64,000 bases of DNA from Solirubrobacter pauli (GTDB lineage Bacteria; Actinomycetota; Thermoleophilia; Solirubrobacterales; Solirubrobacteraceae): the NCBI RefSeq assembly GCF_003633755.1, contig NZ_RBIL01000001.1, positions 2,279,426 through 2,343,425 on the forward strand. The letters run 5' to 3'. Of this stretch, positions 37,527 through 50,196 are shown piece after piece. The notes under the pieces were generated by a model. It was not told the DNA's origin. It did no database searches and saw nothing but the letters and a program-made list of their open reading frames with translations. Made by a program: the position numbers and the translations under genes. Within the stretch, counting starts at the first letter, position 1, and each line of letters begins with the position of its first letter.

Positions 37527-38165
37527 TTACCCCAGTCGGACGTAGCCGATGGCGGGGCGCGACCCGGGCGGGTAGGACCGGGTGGAGACCTTGTCGGACG
37601 AGTTGCCCTCGATCGTGTTGATCGTGCCGTCGGCGCCGACGGACTCCACGACGCCGATGTGCTCGTCCCAGACGATCAGGTCGCCCGGCTGCGGCTTGAC
37701 GTCGCCGCCGGTGTTCGGGATCGCCTTGCCGGCCTTCTGCGCCCACGCGTAGACGTCGTCCACGCGGCCGAAGCCCTGGCCGTTGTCGCCGAGCGGCACG
37801 CCCGCTTCACGGGCGGCCCAGGAGGTGAAGTACGCGCACCACGGGCCGACGCCGGACCCGGCGGTGGCCTGGCGGAACTGCGCGATCCGCGGCGAGTCGT
37901 TGGAGCCGGGCGGCTGCTCGGCCACGCCGACCTCGCTTCTGACGAGGTTCACGATCGCCTGCCCCGCCGAGGTCGGCGCGGGCGCGGGGGTCAGCGTCGC
38001 CGACGAGGCGCTCTGGAGCTGGGAGGCGAAGGCGGCGGGCGTCGTCGCCGCCGCCGCGGGCGCCGTCTTCGCGGGCGTGGCCTGCGCGGCCGGCGCGGGC
38101 GCGGCGGCCGGGTTGAAGAAGCTCTGGAGCTGGGCCATGCGGGCGAGTGCGACGTCGTAGCTCAT
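37527..38165 (-). CDS. CHAP-domain peptidoglycan hydrolase, flagella-linked
   Basis: The 212-residue protein has a CHAP amidase/endopeptidase domain in its second half: the catalytic cysteine in GPWCAYFTSWAAREAG, the histidine in WDEHIGVVESV and the following TIEGNSS segment. The N-terminus SYDVALARMAQLQSFFNP looks like a short rod- or hook-binding helix; there is no signal peptide, which suggests export by the flagellar system or another route. An Ala/Pro-rich linker joins the parts. A TAAA-N16-GCCGATGG element nine bases before ATG 38165 is a candidate sigma-28 promoter. By analogy with FlgJ it may open peptidoglycan for the rod. It leads the nonulosonate operon. Confidence 0.7.
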   Translation of the reverse strand: MSYDVALARMAQLQSFFNPAAAPAPAAQATPAKTAPAAAATTPAAFASQLQSASSATLTPAPAPTSAGQAIVNLVRSEVGVAEQPPGSNDSPRIAQFRQATAGSGVGPWCAYFTSWAAREAGVPLGDNGQGFGRVDDVYAWAQKAGKAIPNTGGDVKPQPGDLIVWDEHIGVVESVGADGTINTIEGNSSDKVSTRSYPPGSRPAIGYVRLG

Positions 38166-38174
38166 GCACGAATC

Positions 38175-38202
38175 CCATCGGCCCCTCGCAGCGCCGACTT
38201 TA
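38175..38202 (-). promoter_or_regulatory. Candidate sigma-28 promoter of the CHAP/nonulosonate operon
   Basis: TAAA (38202-38199), 16 bases, GCCGATGG (38182-38175), then nine bases to ATG 38165. It matches the flagellin promoters in this window and predicts an almost leaderless mRNA. Confidence 0.6.
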
Positions 38203-41420: not shown

Positions 41421-42278
41421 CTAGCGGAGCAGCGACAGGACGCCCTGCGGCGCCTGGTTGGCCTGCGCGAGCATGCTCGTGCCGGCCTGCTGGAGGATGT
41501 TCAGCTTCGTGAACTTCGTCATCTCCGCCGCCATGTCCACGTCGCGGATCCGCGACTCGGAGGCGGTGAGGTTCTCCTGGTAGGTCGCCAGGTTCGTCAG
41601 GCGATGCTCCAGACGGTTCTGGACGGCGCCGAAGTTGCCACGGACCTTGGAGATGTTCTCGATCATGTCGTCGAGCTGGCCGACGTCGCACATGGCGCCG
41701 GTGGCGAGCACCGCCGCCGCGTCGGACGCGACGGTCAGCGTCGACGCCGCCGTCAGGTTGTTCAGGCCGCCGGCCGAAGCCGCAGCGTTGAACGAGATGG
41801 CGGCCATCGAGATGGTCTCGCCCTGGTTCGCGCCGACCTGGAACGTGAACGAGTCGGCCGGGCCGAAGAGGCCCTTCCCGTTGAACTTGGTGTCGGTCAG
41901 GATGTTGCTGACCTCCTTGGCGATCTCGATGACCTCGGCGCCGATCGCGTTCTTGTCGTTCGCGTCCAGCGTGCCGTTGTTGATCTGAACCTTCAGGTCA
42001 CGGACACGCTGCAGCATCGAGTGCACCTCGGAGAGGGCACCTTCCGCCGTCTGGACGAGCGAGATGCCGTCCTGCGCGTTGCGCTGCGCCTGAGCGAGGC
42101 CACCGATCTGCCCGCGCATCTTCTCCGAGATGCCCAGGCCGGCAGCATCGTCCGCGGCGCGGTTGATGCGGTAGCCAGAGGAGAGCTTCTCCATGGCCTT
42201 GGAAGCCTGCGACGACGTCGCCGTCAGCTGACGGTGCGTGTTGAAGGCTTCGATGTTGTTCTGGATACGGAGGCCCAT
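41421..42278 (-). CDS. fliC: Flagellin, copy 1
   Basis: A short flagellin of 285 residues with only the D0/D1 core. N-terminal helices begin MGLRIQNNIEAFNTHRQL, with SSGYRINRAADDAAGLGI, and the C-terminus ends NILQQAGTSMLAQANQ plus GVLSLLR. The D2/D3 domains of enteric flagellins are absent. The variable stretch, residues about 155-205, has one cysteine (Cys197, AMCDVG), rare in flagellins. It has a GAGGAGAC-type leader and a fully palindromic promoter. As the last copy of the array it is followed by a separate hairpin. Confidence 0.93.
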   Translation of the reverse strand: MGLRIQNNIEAFNTHRQLTATSSQASKAMEKLSSGYRINRAADDAAGLGISEKMRGQIGGLAQAQRNAQDGISLVQTAEGALSEVHSMLQRVRDLKVQINNGTLDANDKNAIGAEVIEIAKEVSNILTDTKFNGKGLFGPADSFTFQVGANQGETISMAAISFNAAASAGGLNNLTAASTLTVASDAAAVLATGAMCDVGQLDDMIENISKVRGNFGAVQNRLEHRLTNLATYQENLTASESRIRDVDMAAEMTKFTKLNILQQAGTSMLAQANQAPQGVLSLLR

Positions 42279-42339
42279 GATCTAACGCTCCTTGTTGATC
42301 GGGTTGAAGGGCTGTACCGAGGTGACTCCATGTCTCCTC
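42279..42339 (-). promoter_or_regulatory. Two-hairpin mRNA leader, copy 1
   Basis: GAGGAGAC, ATGGA loop, GTCACCTC (42339-42319), then AAC, AAGGAGC, GTT with GATC arms around the ribosome site. Both loops present AnGGA. Confidence 0.6.
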
Positions 42340-42347
42340 AAGCACGA

Positions 42348-42374
42348 AGATCGGCCCCGAGGGGCCGATCTTTA
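42348..42374 (-). promoter_or_regulatory. Palindromic sigma-28 promoter/terminator, copy 1
   Basis: TAAA (42374-42371), 15 bases, GCCGATCT (42355-42348). The spacer begins GATCGGCCCC and the element pairs with itself over about 11 bases each side, so it can also form a hairpin in the upstream transcript. Confidence 0.72.
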
Positions 42375-42397
42375 GCGAGCGGTGGTCAGCCCGGCGA

Positions 42398-43246
42398 CTA
42401 GCGCAGGAGGCTCAGGACGCCCTGCGGGGCCTGGTTGGCCTGGGCCAGCATCGAGGTGCCGGCCTGCTGCAGGATGTTGAGCTTCGTGAACTTGGTCATC
42501 TCGGCGGCCATGTCCACGTCACGGATCCGCGACTCGGACGCCGTCAGGTTCTCCTGGTAGGTGGCCAGGTTCGTCAGACGGTGCTCCAGACGGTTCTGGA
42601 CCGCGCCGTAGCTGCCGCGCAGCTTGGACACGTTCTCGATCGCGGTGTCGATGTCGGAGATCACCGACAGGTCGCCGGTCGACAGCGCCGCGGCGACGTC
42701 GCTGACCTGGCACGCGGCCAGGGCGATCGTCGTCGAGAGGCCACCGGCGGTCGCCGCGCCGCTGAGCACGGTCGACGCCATCGTGATCGTCTCGCCCTGG
42801 TTGGCGCCGACCTGGAACGAGAAGCTGTTCCCGAACACGGCGGTGCCGTTGAACTTCGTGTCGGTCGAGATCGACTTGACTTCCTTGGTGATCTCGAGGA
42901 CCTCGGCGGCGATGGCCGTCTTGTCGTTCGCGTCGAGGGTGCCGTTGTTGTACTGCACCTTCAGGTCACGGACGCGCTCGAGCATCGAGTGGACCTCGGC
43001 CAGCGCGCCTTCCGCGGTCTGGACGAGCGAGATGCCGTCCTGCGCGTTGCGCTGGGCCTGGGCGAGACCGCCGATCTGCCCGCGCATCTTCTCGGAGATG
43101 CCGAGGCCGGCGGCGTCGTCGGCCGCGCGGTTGATGCGGTAGCCGCTGGAGAGCTTCTCCATGGCCTTGGAAGCCTGCGACGACGTCGCCGTCAGCTGAC
43201 GGTGCGTGTTGAAGGCTTCGATGTTGTTCTGAATGCGAAGGCCCAT
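42398..43246 (-). CDS. fliC: Flagellin, copy 2
   Basis: 282 residues. It differs from copy 1 mainly at residues 115-200: LEITKEVKSISTDTKFNGTAVFGN, then STVLSGAATAGGLSTTIALAAC with a single cysteine at 179 and DIDTAIENVSKLRG. The length is the second shortest of the array. The true start is ATG 43246; an upstream in-frame extension reaches only non-coding leader. Its leader carries AAGGA in the first loop. Ribosome site is TCAACA, AGGAG, TGTTGA. Confidence 0.93.
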   Translation of the reverse strand: MGLRIQNNIEAFNTHRQLTATSSQASKAMEKLSSGYRINRAADDAAGLGISEKMRGQIGGLAQAQRNAQDGISLVQTAEGALAEVHSMLERVRDLKVQYNNGTLDANDKTAIAAEVLEITKEVKSISTDTKFNGTAVFGNSFSFQVGANQGETITMASTVLSGAATAGGLSTTIALAACQVSDVAAALSTGDLSVISDIDTAIENVSKLRGSYGAVQNRLEHRLTNLATYQENLTASESRIRDVDMAAEMTKFTKLNILQQAGTSMLAQANQAPQGVLSLLR

Positions 43247-43302
43247 GGTCAACACTCCTTGTTGATCGGGGGGAGGGCATCTGGCGGCGACTCCTTGTCG
43301 CC
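43247..43302 (-). promoter_or_regulatory. Two-hairpin mRNA leader, copy 2
   Basis: GGCGAC, AAGGA, GTCGCC (43302-43286), followed by TCAACA, AGGAG, TGTTGA. The loop base N of AnGGA is A here. Confidence 0.6.
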
Positions 43303-43312
43303 TTAACCGCAA

Positions 43313-43339
43313 AGATCGGCCACGAAGGGCCGATCTTTA
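43313..43339 (-). promoter_or_regulatory. Palindromic sigma-28 promoter/terminator, copy 2
   Basis: TAAA (43339-43336), 15 bases, GCCGATCT (43320-43313). The inner part of the stem (CCCTTCGTGG) has one mismatch; the GATCGGCC/GGCCGATC arms are intact. Confidence 0.7.
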
Positions 43340-43361
43340 GCGAACTGCTTCGGGTGCTGAC

Positions 43362-44216
43362 TTAGCGGAGCAGCGACAGGACGCCCTGCGGCGCCTGGTT
43401 GGCCTGCGCGAGCATGCTCGTGCCGGCCTGCTGGAGGATGTTCAACTTCGTGAACTTCGTCATCTCCGCCGCCATGTCCACGTCACGGATCCGCGACTCG
43501 GACGCCGTCAGGTTCTCCTGGTAGGTCGCCAGGTTCGTCAGACGGTGCTCCAGACGGTTCTGGACCGCGCCGTACTGGCCGCGGACCTTCGAGACGTTCT
43601 CGATCATCTGGTCGACGCTCGAGATCACCGACAGGTCGCCGCTGCACAGCGCCGTCGCCACGGCCGAAGCCGCGGACACGCCGACCGCCGTGAGGTTCGA
43701 CAGACCGCCGGCGGTCTTGTCACCGCTCAGCGTCGTCGCGGCCAGGGCGATCGTCTCGCCCTGGTTGGCGCCGACCTGGAACGTGAACGAGTCGGACGTG
43801 CCGAACACGCTCTTGCCGTTGAACTTGGTGTCGCTCAGGATGTTGCTGACTTCCTTGGCGATCTCCACGACCTCGGCGCCGATGGCGTTCTTGTCGTTGT
43901 CGTCGAGCGTGCCGTTGTTGATCTGGACCTTGAGGTCACGAACGCGCTCGAGCATCGAGTGCACCTCACCGAGGGCACCTTCCGCCGTCTGGACGAGCGA
44001 GATGCCGTCCTGCGCGTTGCGCTGCGCCTGGGCCAGGCCGCCGATCTGGCCGCGCATCTTCTCCGAGATGCCCAGGCCGGCGGCGTCGTCCGCGGCGCGG
44101 TTGATGCGGTAGCCGCTGGAGAGCTTCTCCATGGCCTTCGAGGCCTGCGACGACGTCGCCGTCAGCTGACGGTGCGTGTTGAAGGCTTCGATGTTGTTCT
44201 GAATGCGAAGGCCCAT
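43362..44216 (-). CDS. fliC: Flagellin, copy 3
   Basis: 284 residues. Central segment: GKSVFGTSDSFTFQ, LAATTLSGDKTAGGLSNLTAVGVS, SAVATALCSGDLSVISSVDQMIENVSKVRGQYG. Cys191 is five residues nearer the N-terminus than the cysteine of copies 1, 4 and 9, so it arose separately or was shifted by exchange. Shares the GAGGAGAC leader type with copy 1 although copy 2 lies between them. Confidence 0.93.
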   Translation of the reverse strand: MGLRIQNNIEAFNTHRQLTATSSQASKAMEKLSSGYRINRAADDAAGLGISEKMRGQIGGLAQAQRNAQDGISLVQTAEGALGEVHSMLERVRDLKVQINNGTLDDNDKNAIGAEVVEIAKEVSNILSDTKFNGKSVFGTSDSFTFQVGANQGETIALAATTLSGDKTAGGLSNLTAVGVSAASAVATALCSGDLSVISSVDQMIENVSKVRGQYGAVQNRLEHRLTNLATYQENLTASESRIRDVDMAAEMTKFTKLNILQQAGTSMLAQANQAPQGVLSLLR

Positions 44217-44281
44217 GATCGAACGCTCCTTGTCTGATCGGGTTGCAGAAGGGCTTTGCCGAGGTGACTCCGTGTCTCCTC
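44217..44281 (-). promoter_or_regulatory. Two-hairpin mRNA leader, copy 3
   Basis: GAGGAGAC, ACGGA, GTCACCTC (44281-44261); N of AnGGA is C. The ribosome-site hairpin is weak here (AGAC before AAGGAGC). Confidence 0.55.
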
Positions 44282-44289
44282 AAGCCAAA

Positions 44290-44316
44290 AGATCGGCCCC
44301 GAGGGGCCGATCTTTA
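44290..44316 (-). promoter_or_regulatory. Palindromic sigma-28 promoter/terminator, copy 3
   Basis: TAAA (44316-44313), 15 bases, GCCGATCT (44297-44290), followed by TTTTGG. The A and T flanks extend the symmetry, making this the best terminator of the set. Confidence 0.75.
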
Positions 44317-44346
44317 GCGACGCGGGTTCGAGCTCTCGGCTGCGGC

Positions 44347-45207
44347 TTAGCGCAGGAGGCTCAGGACGCCCTGGGGCGCCTGGTTGGCCTGCGCGAGCAT
44401 GCTCGTGCCGGCCTGCTGCAGGATGTTCAACTTCGTGAACTTCGTCATCTCCGCCGCCATGTCCACATCGCGGATCCGCGACTCGGAGGCGGTGAGGTTC
44501 TCCTGGTACGTGGCCAGGTTCGTCAGGCGATGCTCCAGACGGTTCTGGACCGCGCCGAGCTGGCCGCGGACCTTCGACACGTTCTCGATCATGTCGTCGA
44601 TGCGGTCGATGTCGCACAGCGCGCCACCGATGAGCGCGGACGCCGCGACCGAGGCCGTGGCGGCCGACGACTGCGCCGTCAGGTCGGTGAGCCCACCGGC
44701 GCCGGACGACAGCGAGCCCAGCGACGTCGCCGTCATCGAGATCGTCTCGCCCTGGTTGGCGCCCACCTGGAAGGTGAAGTTGTTGGTGCCGTTCAGCAGC
44801 GCCTTGCCGTTGAACTTGGTGTCGCTGAGGATGTTGCTGACTTCCTTGGCGATCTCCACGACCTCGGCGCCGATGGCGTTCTGATCGTTGGTGTCGAGCG
44901 TGCCGTTGTTGATCTGGACCTTCAGATCACGCACGCGCTGCAGCATCGAGTGCACCTCGGAGAGGGCACCTTCCGCCGTCTGGACCAGGGAGATCGCGTC
45001 CTGCGCGTTGCGCTGGGACTGCGCCAGACCACCGATCTGACCGCGCATCTTCTCGGAGATGCCGAGGCCGGCGGCGTCGTCGGCGGCACGGTTGATGCGG
45101 TAGCCGCTGGAGAGCTTCTCCATCGCCTTCGAGGCCATCGACGACGTCGCCGTCAGCTGACGGTGCGTGTTGAACGCCTCGATGTTGTTCTGAATGCGAA
45201 GGCCCAT
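44347..45207 (-). CDS. fliC: Flagellin, copy 4
   Basis: 286 residues, the longest copy. The central part reads GKALLNGTNNFTFQ, TSLGSLSSGAGGLTDLTAQSS, ASALIGGALCDIDRIDDMIENVSKVRGQLG. Cys198 sits at the same place as in copies 1 and 9. The N-terminal helix has ATSSMASKAM instead of SQASKAM, shared with copy 5. It carries QSQRNAQDAISL where other copies have AQRNAQDGISL. Confidence 0.93.
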   Translation of the reverse strand: MGLRIQNNIEAFNTHRQLTATSSMASKAMEKLSSGYRINRAADDAAGLGISEKMRGQIGGLAQSQRNAQDAISLVQTAEGALSEVHSMLQRVRDLKVQINNGTLDTNDQNAIGAEVVEIAKEVSNILSDTKFNGKALLNGTNNFTFQVGANQGETISMTATSLGSLSSGAGGLTDLTAQSSAATASVAASALIGGALCDIDRIDDMIENVSKVRGQLGAVQNRLEHRLTNLATYQENLTASESRIRDVDMAAEMTKFTKLNILQQAGTSMLAQANQAPQGVLSLLR

Positions 45208-45267
45208 GATTCAACACTCCTTGTTGATCGGGGGTGTGGGCAATGTCCGGGCGACTCCATGTCGCCC
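45208..45267 (-). promoter_or_regulatory. Two-hairpin mRNA leader, copy 4
   Basis: GGGCGAC, ATGGA, GTCGCCC (45267-45249), then CAACA, AGGAG, TGTTG with flanking GAT/ATC. This is the commonest form of the leader. Confidence 0.65.
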
Positions 45268-45277
45268 TTAACCGCAA

Positions 45278-45304
45278 AGATCGGCCCCGAGGGACCGATC
45301 TTTA
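45278..45304 (-). promoter_or_regulatory. Palindromic sigma-28 promoter/terminator, copy 4
   Basis: TAAA (45304-45301), 15 bases, GCCGATCT (45285-45278). The spacer base T in GATCGGTCCC keeps pairing as a G-U wobble in RNA. Confidence 0.72.
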
Positions 45305-45332
45305 GCGACTACGTCGGATTCGGCTGAGCCGG

Positions 45333-46190
45333 CTAGCGCAGGAGGCTGAGGACGCCCTGCGGGGCCTGGTTGGCCTGCGCGAGCATGCTCGTGCCGGCCT
45401 GCTGGAGGATGTTCAGCTTCGTGAACTTCGTCATCTCCGCCGCCATGTCCACGTCACGGATCCGCGACTCGGACGCCGTCAGGTTCTCCTGGTAGGTCGC
45501 CAGGTTCGTCAGACGGTGCTCCAGGCGGTTCTGCACGGCGCCGTAGACGCCACGCTGCTTGGAGACGTTCTCGATCATGTCGTCGATCATGTCGAGGTCG
45601 GACAGCCCGTTGCCGATCAGGGCGGAAGCCGCAGCGGAAGCCGTCGCGGCCGCCGACAGGCTGGTGAGCTGCGAGAGGCCGCCGCCCGCCGCGTTGGCGC
45701 TGAGCGGCGTCGCCGCGATCGAGATGGTCTCGCCCTGGTTGGCGCCGACCTGGAACGTGAACGAGTTGTCGCCGTCCAGCAGCGTCTTGCCGTTGAACTT
45801 GGTGTCGCTGAGGATGCTGCTGACCTCCTTGGCGATCTCGATGACCTCGGCGCCGATGGCGTTCTGGTCGTTGGTGTCGAGCGTGCCGTTGTTGATCTGG
45901 ACCTTCAGATCACGGACGCGCTGCAGCATCGAGTGCACCTCGGCCAGCGCGCCTTCCGCGGTCTGGACGAGCGAGATGCCGTCCTGCGCGTTGCGCTGGG
46001 CCTGGGCGAGACCGCCGATCTGCCCGCGCATCTTCTCGGAGATGCCGAGGCCGGCGGCATCGTCAGCGGCGCGGTTGATGCGGTAGCCGCTGGAGAGCTT
46101 CTCCATGGCCTTCGAAGCCATCGACGACGTCGCCGTCAGCTGACGGTGCGTGTTGAAGGCTTCGATGTTGTTCTGAATGCGAAGGCCCAT
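45333..46190 (-). CDS. fliC: Flagellin, copy 5
   Basis: 285 residues without cysteine. The variable part is GKTLLDGDNSFTFQ, IAATPLSANAAGGGLSQLTSLSAAATASAAASALIG in pieces, then NGLSDLDMIDDMIENVSKQRGVYG. The N-terminal SSMASKAM variant matches copy 4, suggesting recent exchange of the 5' third. Aligned to copy 4, Ser replaces the cysteine (GLSDLD against ALCDID). Confidence 0.93.
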   Translation of the reverse strand: MGLRIQNNIEAFNTHRQLTATSSMASKAMEKLSSGYRINRAADDAAGLGISEKMRGQIGGLAQAQRNAQDGISLVQTAEGALAEVHSMLQRVRDLKVQINNGTLDTNDQNAIGAEVIEIAKEVSSILSDTKFNGKTLLDGDNSFTFQVGANQGETISIAATPLSANAAGGGLSQLTSLSAAATASAAASALIGNGLSDLDMIDDMIENVSKQRGVYGAVQNRLEHRLTNLATYQENLTASESRIRDVDMAAEMTKFTKLNILQQAGTSMLAQANQAPQGVLSLLR

Positions 46191-46250
46191 GATTCAACAC
46201 TCCTTGTTGATCGGGGGAAGGGCGGACGTGCGGGCGACTCCATGTCGCCC
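46191..46250 (-). promoter_or_regulatory. Two-hairpin mRNA leader, copy 5
   Basis: GGGCGAC, ATGGA, GTCGCCC (46250-46232); CAACA, AGGAG, TGTTG at the ribosome site. Confidence 0.65.
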
Positions 46251-46261
46251 CTTAAACGCAA

Positions 46262-46288
46262 AGATCGGCCCCGAAGAGCCGATCTTTA
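46262..46288 (-). promoter_or_regulatory. Palindromic sigma-28 promoter/terminator, copy 5
   Basis: TAAA (46288-46285), 15 bases, GCCGATCT (46269-46262). Spacer GATCGGCTCT opposite GGGG keeps wobble pairs, so the RNA hairpin survives base changes. Confidence 0.72.
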
Positions 46289-46309
46289 GCGAGCGGTGGT
46301 GAGCGGTGA

Positions 46310-47152
46310 CTAGCGCAGGAGGCTCAGGACGCCCTGGGGCGCCTGGTTGGCCTGCGCGAGCATGCTCGTGCCGGCCTGCTGGAGGATGTTCAACTTCGTG
46401 AACTTGGTCATCTCCGCCGCCATGTCCACGTCACGGATCCGCGACTCGGACGCCGTCAGGTTCTCCTGGTACGTGGCCAGGTTCGTCAGACGGTGCTCCA
46501 GACGGTTCTGCACGGCGCCGTAGCTGCCGCGCAGCTTGGAGACGTTCTCGATCATCGTGTCGATCGTCGAGATCGCGGTCAGCGTGCCGGCCGCGGCGCT
46601 CAGCGCGTTGGTGGTGTCGCTGACGACGCTGACGGCGAGGCCCGTCAGGTCGGAGACGACGCCGAAGGACGCCGCGCCCATGGAGATCGTCTCGCCCTGG
46701 TTCGCGCCGACCTGGAACGAGAACGTATCGCTCGAGGTGAACAGCGTCTTGCCGTTGAACTTGGTGTCGTCGAAGATGTCCTTGACCTCCTTGGCGATCT
46801 CGAACACCTCCGCGCTGATGGCCTTCTTGTCGTTGTCGTCAAGCGTGCCGTTGTTGAACTGCACCTTCAGGTCACGGACGCGCTCGAGCATCGAGTGAAC
46901 CTCGGCCAGCGCGCCTTCCGCCGTCTGGACGAGCGAGACGCCGTCCTGCGCGTTGCGCTGCGCCTGAGCCAGACCACCGATCTGACCGCGCATCTTCTCG
47001 GAGATGCCCAGACCCGCCGCGTCATCGGCCGCGCGGTTGATCCGGTAGCCGCTGGAGAGCTTCTCCATCGACTTGGAAGCCTGCGTCGACGTCGCCGTCA
47101 GCTGACGGTGCGTGTTGAAGGCTTCGATGTTGTTCTGAATGCGAAGGCCCAT
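46310..47152 (-). CDS. fliC: Flagellin, copy 6
   Basis: 280 residues, the shortest copy, no cysteine. N-terminal differences: TATSTQASKSMEK, where other copies have SSQASKAMEK. Central: GKTLFTSSDTFSFQ, GAASFGVVSDLTGLAVSVVSD, AAAGTLTAISTIDTMIENVSKLRG. FEIAKEVKDIFDDTKF is shared in type with copy 7. Promoter is the TCAA type. Confidence 0.93.
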   Translation of the reverse strand: MGLRIQNNIEAFNTHRQLTATSTQASKSMEKLSSGYRINRAADDAAGLGISEKMRGQIGGLAQAQRNAQDGVSLVQTAEGALAEVHSMLERVRDLKVQFNNGTLDDNDKKAISAEVFEIAKEVKDIFDDTKFNGKTLFTSSDTFSFQVGANQGETISMGAASFGVVSDLTGLAVSVVSDTTNALSAAAGTLTAISTIDTMIENVSKLRGSYGAVQNRLEHRLTNLATYQENLTASESRIRDVDMAAEMTKFTKLNILQQAGTSMLAQANQAPQGVLSLLR

Positions 47153-47212
47153 GATTCAACGCTCCTTGTTGATCGGGGGTGTGGGCAATGTCCGGGCGAC
47201 TCCTTGTCGCCC
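47153..47212 (-). promoter_or_regulatory. Two-hairpin mRNA leader, copy 6
   Basis: GGGCGAC, AAGGA, GTCGCCC (47212-47194); CAAC, AAGGAGC, GTTG around the ribosome site. Confidence 0.63.
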
Positions 47213-47222
47213 TTAAACGCCA

Positions 47223-47249
47223 AGATCGGCCGCGACGGACCGATCTTGA
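47223..47249 (-). promoter_or_regulatory. Palindromic sigma-28 promoter/terminator, copy 6
   Basis: TCAA (47249-47246), 15 bases, GCCGATCT (47230-47223). Arms GATCGG/CCGATC and CCG/CGG are kept around a one-base bulge. Confidence 0.68.
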
Positions 47250-47277
47250 GCGACCACCTTCAAAATGGCTGAGCGAT

Positions 47278-48135
47278 CTAGCGCAGGAGGCTCAGGACGC
47301 CCTGCGGGGCCTGGTTGGCCTGGGCCAGCATCGACGTGCCGGCCTGCTGCAGGATGTTCAGCTTCGTGAACTTGGTCATCTCCGCCGCCATGTCCACATC
47401 GCGGATCCGCGACTCAGAGGCGGTGAGGTTCTCCTGGTAGGTCGCCAGGTTCGTCAGGCGATGCTCCAGACGGTTCTGGACCGCGCCGAGGCTGCCGCGG
47501 ACCTTGGAGACGTTCTCGATCATCTTGTCGATGTCGGAGACCACGGACATGTTGTTCGTGGCGAGGGCCGAGACGGCGTCGCTGACGAGCTTGTTCGTGG
47601 CGAGCTGCGTCAGGTTCGAGAGGCCGCCGACGCTCGAGTCGCCGGCCAGCGAGATCGCGTCGAGCGTGATCTTCTCGCCCTGGTTGGCACCGACCTGGAA
47701 GTCGAACGAGCTCGAGGCGCTGAAGAGCGTCTTGCCGTTGAACTTCGTGTCGTCGAGGATGTCCTGGACCTCCTTGGCGATCTCGAGGACCTCGGCGCCG
47801 ATGGCCGTCTTGTCGTTCGTGTCCAGCGTGCCGTTGTTGAACTGCACCTTCAGGTCACGGACGCGAGCGAGCATCGAGTGCACCTCGGAGAGGGCCCCTT
47901 CCGCGGTCTGGACGAGCGAGATGCCGTCCTGCGCGTTGCGCTGCGCCTGGGCGAGGCCGCCGATCTGGCCACGCATCTTCTCGGAGATGCCCAGGCCCGC
48001 CGCGTCGTCGGCGGCACGGTTGATGCGGTAGCCGCTGGAGAGCTTCTCCATCGCCTTCGAGGCCTGCGACGACGTCGCCGTCAGCTGGCGATGCGTGTTG
48101 AACGCCTCGATGTTGTTCTGAATGCGAAGGCCCAT
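47278..48135 (-). CDS. fliC: Flagellin, copy 7
   Basis: 285 residues, no cysteine. The middle reads GKTLFSASSSFDFQ, LDAISLAGDSSVGGLSNLTQLATNKLVSDAVSAL in pieces, then ATNNMSVVSDIDKMIENVSKVRGSLG. It keeps the canonical core ends and has MLARVRDLKVQFNNG near residue 90. VGANQGEKITL differs from the VGANQGETI of all the others. Confidence 0.93.
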   Translation of the reverse strand: MGLRIQNNIEAFNTHRQLTATSSQASKAMEKLSSGYRINRAADDAAGLGISEKMRGQIGGLAQAQRNAQDGISLVQTAEGALSEVHSMLARVRDLKVQFNNGTLDTNDKTAIGAEVLEIAKEVQDILDDTKFNGKTLFSASSSFDFQVGANQGEKITLDAISLAGDSSVGGLSNLTQLATNKLVSDAVSALATNNMSVVSDIDKMIENVSKVRGSLGAVQNRLEHRLTNLATYQENLTASESRIRDVDMAAEMTKFTKLNILQQAGTSMLAQANQAPQGVLSLLR

Positions 48136-48191
48136 GATTCAACACTCCTTGTTGATCGGGGGAAGGCCGGACGGGCGACTCCATGTCGCCC
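48136..48191 (-). promoter_or_regulatory. Two-hairpin mRNA leader, copy 7
   Basis: GGGCGAC, ATGGA, GTCGCCC (48191-48173); CAACA, AGGAG, TGTTG at the ribosome site. Confidence 0.63.
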
Positions 48192-48201
48192 TTAACCGCA
48201 G

Positions 48202-48228
48202 AGATCGGCCCCGGAGGGCCGACCTTGA
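48202..48228 (-). promoter_or_regulatory. Palindromic sigma-28 promoter/terminator, copy 7
   Basis: TCAA (48228-48225), 15 bases, GCCGATCT (48209-48202); stem GGTCGGCCC against GGGCCGATC, one G-U pair. Confidence 0.66.
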
Positions 48229-48263
48229 GGTACCGCGTGAATTCGGGGGCGAAGCCCTGAGCT

Positions 48264-49118
48264 TTAGCCCTTCAGCAGCGAGAGGACGCCCTGCGGCGCC
48301 TGGTTGGCCTGCGCCAGCATCGACGTGCCGGCCTGCTGCAGGATGTTCAGCTTCGTGAACTTGGTCATCTCCTGCGCCATGTCCACGTCGCGGATGCGCG
48401 ACTCCGACGCCGTCAGGTTCTCCTGGTAGGTCGCCAGGTTCGTCAGACGGTGCTCGAGCCGGTTCTGGACCGCGCCGAGCTGTCCACGGATCTTGGAGAC
48501 GTTCTCGATCGCCTTGTCCAGGTTGCCGAGGTCGGAGAGGCCACCCGAGGACAGCGCCGCGACGGTGGCCGACACGGCGCTGGCCGCGAGGCTGGTGAGG
48601 TCGGAGAGACCGCCGGCGGCGATGCCGCCGCTGAGGCCGACCGGGGAGACCGAGACGGTCTCGCCCTGGTTCGCGCCCACCTGGAAGACGAAGCCGGTGG
48701 CACCGAACAGCGCCTGGCCGTTGAACTTCGTCTCGCTGATGATCGACGAGACCTCCTTGGAGATCTCGAGGACCTCGGCGGCGATGGCCTCCTGGCCGCC
48801 GGTGTCGAGCGTGCCGTTGTTGAACTGGACCTTCAGGTCACGGACGCGCTCGAGCATCGAGTGGACCTCGGCGAGCGAGCCTTCCGCGGTCTGGACGAGC
48901 GAGATGCCGTCCTGCGCGTTGCGCTGCGCCTGAGCCAGACCACTGATCTGGCCGCGCATCTTCTCCGAGATGCCCAGGCCGGCGGCGTCGTCGGCAGCGC
49001 GGTTGATGCGATAGCCGGAGGAGAGCTTCTCCATCGCCTTCGAGGCCTGCATCGACGTCGCCGAAAGCTGGCGATGCGTGTTGAAGGCTTCGATGTTGTT
49101 CTGGATGCGCAGGCCCAT
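48264..49118 (-). CDS. fliC: Flagellin, copy 8 (divergent)
   Basis: 284 residues. It is the most divergent copy: N-terminal RQLSATSMQASKAM, GQISGLAQAQ, DVDMAQEMTKF instead of AAEMTKF, and a C-terminus ending LLKG instead of LLR. Middle: TGGQEAIAAEVLEISKEVSSIISETKFNGQ in pieces, GATGFVFQVGANQGETVSV, GLSGGIAAGGLSDLTSL, GLSDLGNLDKAIENVSK. No cysteine. Promoter spacing is 16 and not palindromic. It may be a minor filament or cap-proximal subunit. Confidence 0.93.
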   Translation of the reverse strand: MGLRIQNNIEAFNTHRQLSATSMQASKAMEKLSSGYRINRAADDAAGLGISEKMRGQISGLAQAQRNAQDGISLVQTAEGSLAEVHSMLERVRDLKVQFNNGTLDTGGQEAIAAEVLEISKEVSSIISETKFNGQALFGATGFVFQVGANQGETVSVSPVGLSGGIAAGGLSDLTSLAASAVSATVAALSSGGLSDLGNLDKAIENVSKIRGQLGAVQNRLEHRLTNLATYQENLTASESRIRDVDMAQEMTKFTKLNILQQAGTSMLAQANQAPQGVLSLLKG

Positions 49119-49164
49119 GGCCGGGGATACTCCTTGTGAGGAACTGGACGACTCCGTGTCGTCC
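49119..49164 (-). promoter_or_regulatory. Two-hairpin mRNA leader, copy 8
   Basis: GGACGAC, ACGGA, GTCGTCC (49164-49146): the stem differs from the other copies at paired positions and still closes. The ribosome site is CACAAGGAGTATCC without a clear second stem. Confidence 0.6.
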
Positions 49165-49180
49165 CGGACGGATACGACGT

Positions 49181-49208
49181 CTGTCGGCCGCCTCGCAAGG
49201 GAGCTTTA
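49181..49208 (-). promoter_or_regulatory. Non-palindromic sigma-28 promoter, copy 8
   Basis: TAAA (49208-49205), 16 bases, GCCGACAG (49188-49181). The spacer does not mirror the -10. A separate terminator lies upstream at 49237-49272. Confidence 0.6.
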
Positions 49209-49236
49209 GCCTGCGTGAGATTTGGGGGAACGCGGT

Positions 49237-49272
49237 CCGGCCCCCTGGTCCGCGTGCGAACCAGAGGGCCGG
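49237..49272 (-). terminator. Terminator after flagellin copy 9
   Basis: CCGGCCC with ACCAG/CTGGT-type stem on both sides of a ten-base loop, downstream of the flagellin ending at 49285. Confidence 0.6.
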
Positions 49273-49284
49273 GAGAAGCGCGAT

Positions 49285-50139
49285 CTAGCGCAGGAGGCTG
49301 AGGACGCCCTGCGGAGCCTGGTTGGCCTGGGCCAGCATCGAGGTGCCGGCCTGCTGCAGGATGTTCAACTTCGTGAACTTGGTCATCTCCGCCGCCATGT
49401 CCACATCGCGGATCCGCGACTCGGAGGCGGTGAGGTTCTCCTGGTACGTGGCCAGGTTCGTCAGGCGATGCTCCAGGCGGTTCTGGATCGCGCCGTACGC
49501 GCCACGCTGCTTGGAGACGTTCTCGATCATGTCGTCGATGCGATCGATGTCGCAGAGGCTGCCCGACGAGAGCGCGGTGGCCGCGGCGGTGGCCGTGGAC
49601 GCCGAGAGGCTGGTCAGGTTGGCGAGGCTGTCGGAGACGACGGCACCGTCGAGGGTAGCCGCGGCCACGTCGATCGTCTCGCCCTGGTTGGCGCCGACCT
49701 GGAACTTGAACGTGTCGCCCGTGCCGAACACGGTCTTGCCGTTGAACTTGGTGTCGTTCAGGATGCTGCGGACTTCCTTGGCGATCTCCACGACCTCGGC
49801 GCCGATGGCCTCGCGGTCGTTGGTGTCCATCGTGCCGTTGTTGGCCTGGACCTTGAGATCGCGCACGCGCTGCAGCATCGAGTGCACCTCACCGAGGGCA
49901 CCTTCCGCCGTCTGGACGAGCGAGATGCCGTCCTGCGCGTTGCGCTGCGCCTGAGCCAGACCACCGATCTGCCCACGCATCTTCTCCGAGATGCCCAGGC
50001 CGGCGGCATCGTCAGCGGCGCGGTTGATGCGGTAGCCGGAGGAGAGCTTCTCCATGGCCTTCGAGGCCAGCGACGACGTCGCCGTCAGCTGACGGTGCGT
50101 GTTGAACGCCTCGATGTTGTTCTGAATGCGAAGGCCCAT
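49285..50139 (-). CDS. fliC: Flagellin, copy 9
   Basis: 284 residues, upstream end of the array. ATG 50139 is preferred to the upstream in-frame ATG at 50148 because the conserved MGLRIQNN start and ribosome site follow it. Middle: DTNDREAIGAEVVEIAKEVRSI, GKTVFGTGDTFKFQ, VAAATLDGAVVSDSLANLTSL, SSGSLCDIDRIDDMIENVSKQRGAYG; Cys196 matches copies 1 and 4. Uses a promoter located inside the preceding small gene. Confidence 0.92.
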   Translation of the reverse strand: MGLRIQNNIEAFNTHRQLTATSSLASKAMEKLSSGYRINRAADDAAGLGISEKMRGQIGGLAQAQRNAQDGISLVQTAEGALGEVHSMLQRVRDLKVQANNGTMDTNDREAIGAEVVEIAKEVRSILNDTKFNGKTVFGTGDTFKFQVGANQGETIDVAAATLDGAVVSDSLANLTSLSASTATAAATALSSGSLCDIDRIDDMIENVSKQRGAYGAIQNRLEHRLTNLATYQENLTASESRIRDVDMAAEMTKFTKLNILQQAGTSMLAQANQAPQGVLSLLR

Positions 50140-50196
50140 GGTCAACACTCCTTGTTGATCGGGGGAAGGGCGTTACGACGGCGACTCCTTGTCGCC
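50140..50196 (-). promoter_or_regulatory. Two-hairpin mRNA leader, copy 9
   Basis: GGCGAC, AAGGA, GTCGCC (50196-50180) starts one base after the stop of the small upstream gene; then TCAACA, AGGAG, TGTTGA. Confidence 0.62.

Follow-up and report, generated by a model that had tools for sequence, protein, structure and literature searches.

Enzymes that open the cell wall for the flagellum are an already known kind of protein. FlgJ of betaproteobacteria and gammaproteobacteria is a flagellar wall hydrolase that lacks a signal for the general secretory (Sec) pathway and is carried by the flagellum. The sigma-D autolysins LytC, LytD and LytF of Bacillus subtilis are wall hydrolases under the control of a motility sigma factor and carry Sec signals and wall-binding repeats, and CwlQ of the same bacterium is a motility-linked wall hydrolase, likened here by description only. 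PMC8517470 describes a dual role for FlgJ and treats BB0259 and SltF as known flagellar SLT enzymes that are exported by Sec and cut glycan. The subject here is a gene for a CHAP-domain protein in a 64,000-nucleotide stretch of the Solirubrobacter pauli genome (contig NZ_RBIL01000001.1, positions 2,279,426 to 2,343,425; the window). Its product, which has relatives in a group of soil actinobacteria, is rather likely to be a peptidoglycan peptide hydrolase of the flagellum, with a predicted Cys-His-Glu/Asn catalytic site.

The CHAP protein resembles FlgJ in lacking a Sec signal and in its predicted carriage by the flagellum. It differs in its domains, given that dual-domain FlgJ joins a rod-binding domain to a glucosaminidase domain (PF01832) and the CHAP protein has neither, with a CHAP domain instead; a search for the rod-binding family PF10135 in the CHAP protein gave no match at E ≤ 1. 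SltF and BB0259 are likewise separate wall hydrolases serving the flagellum, but they have a Sec signal and an SLT domain, neither of which is found in the CHAP protein. Neither the Sec signal nor the wall-binding repeats of the sigma-D autolysins were found by family scan and hydropathy. A protein encoded between fliJ and fliK in the same genome, and likewise in related ones, shares the N-terminal module described below, the lack of a Sec signal and the flagellar linkage; it differs in having an SLT domain (PF01464, 99.8 bits) in place of the CHAP domain and in sitting inside the structural cluster.

The open reading frame is a real gene, with a third-position G+C content of 0.97. The CHAP domain (PF05257) of its product scores above the curated cut-off and has the catalytic cysteine, the histidine and a polar third residue; C110, H169, E186 and N188 are invariant in alignments of 33 sequences (A1, 32 of 38 references plus P0001) and of 39 (A2, 38 of 56 references plus P0001). 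The 33-sequence tests were made without L067, L069, L070, L071, L072, L074, L077 and L080, whose starts are uncertain. The model of the protein, with a mean predicted local distance difference test score (pLDDT) of 88.2, has helices at residues 3-17 and 43-54 followed by the CHAP fold. Residues 62-212 were matched to the papain-like NlpC/P60-CHAP fold (best Z 13.3), and because the comparison matched over that region, the N-terminal helices were barely compared with known folds. Searching solved structures with a profile of alignment A2 gave no match at E ≤ 0.01. Peptide cleavage is the presumed specificity of the enzyme.

The first-pass annotation had described a CHAP hydrolase that lacks a signal peptide and starts with a helix, and both descriptions hold, the second as a structural prediction. 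Within the first 45 residues, Kyte-Doolittle means over 12 residues reach no more than 0.80, compared to 1.88-2.78 for three Sec-type N-termini. A Sec-type N-terminus is absent throughout the CHAP set, in which the highest mean is 1.58, and two further CHAP proteins encoded in this genome begin with clearly hydrophobic, Sec-type stretches, with means of 2.12 and 2.73. A signal peptide hidden by a wrong start was ruled out, given that the frame is closed upstream and the ATG is its first start codon (L003); therefore, no signal was overlooked.

The N-terminus of the CHAP relatives consists of a helix with the consensus YETVLARISEIQQ and an F-x-x-x-L element, separated by a linker of variable length and sequence. 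Outside the catalytic part, R9, F46 and L50 are invariant among 33 aligned relatives, and again among 39. The F-x-x-x-L element occurs in all 33 relatives, starting at residues 28-61, compared to a mean of 2.3 and at most 8 in 1,000 shuffles of the linkers; since the sequences are related, this count reflects conservation and not 33 independent events. The general form of the gate recognition motif of flagellar substrates is F-x-x-x-hydrophobic. Early flagellar substrates, according to Bryant et al. (PMC8983047), have small non-polar N-terminal residues and, 30 or more residues in, a gate recognition motif (FLTLL in FlgD). Judged by sequence, the CHAP protein has both features, with V5 A6 L7 A8 and FASQL at 46-50. 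The module thus resembles the two-part export signal of early substrates in kind, order and spacing, and would be expected to function as one.

The first-pass annotation had also proposed that the enzyme is exported by the flagellar system to open the wall. The flagellar part of this claim is strongly supported by co-occurrence, neighbourhood and promoter, while the sequence features of the N-terminus suggest the export. A single draw sampled 299 genomes of the class, of which 72 match the CHAP protein at E ≤ 1e-8, 45 of them strongly (E ≤ 1e-29) and 27 more weakly. FlhA is found in 58 of the 299; by a hand count of the overlap between two tables, all 45 genomes with strong relatives are FlhA-positive, and none of the 241 FlhA-negative genomes has one. 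The CHAP gene lies directly after flagellin, on the same strand and within 1.2 kb, in 22 of 40 fetched neighbourhoods, and adjoins flagellin in another orientation in 3; in 4 more, the stretch holds flagellar genes at other places. An unrelated CHAP enzyme, such as a phage lysin, a toxin or a general autolysin, could lie beside a flagellar cluster by chance, given that phage endolysins commonly have this fold, several of them being among the fold matches, and that sugar and glycosyltransferase genes stand between the CHAP gene and the flagellins in the window. However, the restriction of all 45 strong relatives to FlhA-positive genomes and the conservation of neighbourhood, promoter and N-terminus make this highly improbable, and a chance location or phage remnant was rejected on co-occurrence and synteny.

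The sigma-28 promoter that had been noted ahead of the gene is borne out by its fixed position. The motif was defined as T[ACG]AA, 15-16 nucleotides and at least five of the six letters of GCCGAT, and start codons were picked from the protein side. In 27 of 39 relatives, counting the window, the box ends 9-12 nucleotides ahead of the start, compared to at most 1 of 39 in every other 4-nucleotide distance bin from 1 to 84. The 39 comprise the 40 fetched loci without L072 and L074, in which the assumed starts are not start codons, plus the window; in L074, the motif was later seen before a GTG. The same stretches hold 14,054 start codons, of which 48 have the motif, 27 being CHAP starts and 21 others. 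A wider count of 40 of 56 was set aside because the choice of starts there favoured the promoter. The genome also encodes a FliA/WhiG-type sigma factor (FliA_WhiG TIGR02479, 214.5 bits, cut-off 189.6; L007 1987-2805), which together with the conserved promoter points to membership of the CHAP gene in the sigma-28 regulon. The usual sigma-28 geometry places the transcript start a few nucleotides from the CHAP start codon, by which the CHAP messenger RNA (mRNA) should be nearly leaderless. A count over the entire genome gives 16 sites of TAAAG-N14/15-GCCGAT and 0 of the reversed pattern. The motif is found before flgB (21 nucleotides), fliI (11), flgF (46), flgG (44), flaG (14) and sigD (53), and before flagellins.

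The module is not confined to CHAP proteins. The SLT enzyme of the fliJ-fliK interval begins with MSIEVAISRMSQIQ, has FSNAL at residue 34 and lacks a Sec signal. A weight matrix built from the CHAP N-termini alone scores 9 or more, the threshold used, in 21 of 29 SLT open reading frames and in 5 of 5 from a third family, compared to 13 of 873 others, one of which, in L136, is itself a third-family protein. SLT relatives occur at E ≤ 1e-5 in 56 of the 58 FlhA-positive genomes. In six genomes of the genus g14, the best SLT values (1e-8 to 6e-12) are at the level of generic transglycosylases, and all six have in its place a member of the third family, in which this module is joined to a different C-terminus. 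Five of these six have, by eye, a promoter of TCAAG (four) or TTAAG (one), 14 nucleotides and GCCGAT, 15-18 nucleotides before the start. Outside g14, G196 has a third-family protein together with CHAP and SLT relatives. The third-family C-terminus has no match above cut-off in the family library; because only one of seven members matches the glucosaminidase family PF01832, and weakly (E 2.5e-4, 22.1 bits, cut-off 30.2), "glucosaminidase-like" is a lead only.

In the phylum, 56 of 296 genomes have an SLT match. Reading of 25 newly fetched SLT loci gave 10 with the module under a strict pattern and, by eye, further ones with module-like N-termini, most of them beside FliI or FliJ. On this basis, the SLT form appears to be the older of the two, with the CHAP form added later within this class. 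A scan of a genome collection was also made, covering the best 80 of 499 relatives (L140-L219), in which the closest named relatives are Solirubrobacter species, at 74-77%. The module was found by pattern in 56 of the 65 loci L140-L204 and by eye in L145, L153, L170 and L192, two of which have F-x-x-x-M; the other five were outside the count, being at contig ends or masked. The 13 of the 15 loci L205-L219 that were read, which do not include L211 and L214, lack it, and on these 13 loci relatives outside the class were rejected as carriers of the module.

The module might instead bind a flagellar protein of the rod, hook or motor and carry no export signal, with the enzyme staying in the cytoplasm or leaving otherwise, for example by lysis. 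The helices at residues 3-17 and 43-54, the latter holding the F-x-x-x-L element, could equally be docking helices. Binding in place of export is nevertheless improbable, given that the module recurs on wall hydrolases of two or three unrelated folds, which all have their substrate beyond the membrane, and that the CHAP set lacks Sec-type N-termini. Slightly favoured over its negation is a plug-in flagellar delivery tag, in which one two-part N-terminal module is joined to SLT, CHAP and glucosaminidase-like domains, the flagella of this class export a matched glycan- and peptide-cutting set, and the CHAP genes give nearly leaderless sigma-28 mRNAs. The features are collected in Table 1.

Table 1. 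Coordinates of the CHAP gene, its parts and associated features (window positions unless a locus is named)
Feature	Position	Strand	Remarks
CHAP-domain protein gene	37527..38165	-	212 residues, ATG start, N-terminus MSYDVALARMAQLQSFFNP
N-terminal helix, residues 3-17	38115..38159	-	Helix predicted; R9 invariant
F-x-x-x-L element FASQL, residues 46-50	38016..38030	-	Resembles gate recognition motif
CHAP catalytic domain, residues 107-188	37602..37847	-	Pfam CHAP PF05257, 49.3 bits, cut-off 26
Sigma-28-type promoter TAAAG-N15-GCCGAT	38177..38202	-	Box ends 11 nucleotides before ATG
Flagellin genes of the flagellar cluster, nine in tandem and very similar	41421..50148	-	Context
Third-family locus L117	9867-10841	+	Conserved C-terminus NNDWLNIGYT
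Third-family loci L130-L136			Conserved C-terminus NNDWLNIGYT

The minus-strand flagellar cluster of the window runs on into L006 and L007. It holds flgB, flgC, fliE, fliF, fliG, fliH, fliI, fliJ, the SLT protein, fliK, flgD and flgE, as well as motA, motB, fliL, fliO to fliR, flhB, flhA, flhF and the flagellins; beyond it are sigD, flgF, flgG, a rod-binding-only FlgJ-like protein, flgN, flgK, flgL, fliW and csrA. Most of these names were assigned by gene order and the look of the sequence, and FliA/WhiG, SLT, FlgJ-like and FlhA were checked by family. The FlgJ-like protein has 86 residues and no enzyme domain, and its match is just under the cut-off. Because this protein and an SLT hydrolase with the same N-terminus exist, both missed at first pass, the CHAP enzyme is not the sole candidate for opening the wall.

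In the favoured mechanism, which is judged likelier than not to be correct, the CHAP protein is exported as a substrate of the flagellar type III system and cleaves the peptides of the wall, the glycan being left to the SLT enzyme. The FliA/WhiG-type sigma factor would transcribe the gene to give a nearly leaderless mRNA. The F-x-x-x-L element would dock the protein at FlhB and the N-terminal residues would open the gate, such that the protein would pass unfolded through the flagellar type III channel, its probable route as judged from the N-terminus, and refold outside the membrane. There it would cut stem peptides or cross-bridges near the growing rod or hook and the SLT enzyme would cut the glycan, the two together allowing the appendage to cross the thick wall. 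The step served may be rod passage or a later one.

A hydrolase exported by the flagellum could also act late, after leaving through a completed hook-basal body. It would then attack the wall from its outer side, for example to part the daughter cells when motile cells divide. Such a role would agree with the sigma-28 promoter, with the flagellin gene immediately upstream of the CHAP gene in 22 of the 40 neighbourhoods and with the service of the B. subtilis sigma-D autolysins in cell separation. However, the tag is like that of early rather than late substrates, it is common to the SLT enzyme of the fliJ-fliK interval, and the same promoter motif stands ahead of rod operons in this genome. 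A late, external role is possible but less likely than the favoured mechanism.

Several observations count against the favoured mechanism. Thirteen of the 58 FlhA-positive genomes have no strong CHAP relative: six are the g14 genomes, one (G015) matches weakly, one (G003) is 97% complete, and completeness is 73-92% in the remaining five. Eleven of the 40 neighbourhoods, several on short contigs, have no flagellar gene. The likeness of F-x-x-x-L to the gate recognition motif extends over a short stretch, and in 2 of the 33 relatives the element starts at residue 28, slightly short of 30. Wall opening needs no flagellar export, since BB0259 and SltF are exported by Sec. This genome has a FlgM-like match, one of 9 above cut-off among the 58 FlhA-positive genomes. 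Sigma-28 genes are often late, being expressed after the rod crosses the wall; because the motif also precedes flgB, fliI, flgF and flgG, sigma-28 control alone is not a sign of a late gene here, which eases this objection without removing it.

The promoter motif was also seen in other settings. Between the tandem flagellins, at window positions 42350, 43315, 44292, 45280 and 46264, a sigma-28-like motif is embedded in an almost perfect inverted repeat with T residues after it, so that a single element would seem to serve as terminator of one gene and promoter of the next. A reading of the TAAAGATCGGCCCCTCGGGGCCGATCTTT stretches upstream of flagellins as plain promoters was rejected; because these inverted repeats look like terminators, the case for the motif was made without them. 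Other genes with the motif 9-12 nucleotides before the start are at L055 12006 and 14160, L061 6543 and 4386, L058 9619, L065 164 and L063 13965, some of which resemble chemotaxis proteins or glycosyltransferases. In this class, sigma-28 transcripts with almost no leader may thus be common. At L252 793-1485(-) (G000:C1 near 1777614), a 230-residue protein without a Sec-type N-terminus has the same promoter motif 15 nucleotides before its start. It carries FSSAL, an F-x-x-x-L match, close to the N-terminus, as well as two repeats around 'YHIYGTGKDRQVI', and is possibly another flagellar export substrate.

In the open-licence literature, which leaves most subscription journals outside, no CHAP enzyme exported by flagella was found, nor a Sec-less CHAP enzyme with the tag of a flagellar SLT enzyme, nor reuse of such a tag on a third domain. 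If the proposed mechanism is true, a peptide-cutting enzyme exported by the flagellum is paired with a glycan-cutting one, both under one tag, which would provide a direct genetic handle. The tag would also serve as a marker for finding further substrates of flagellar export.
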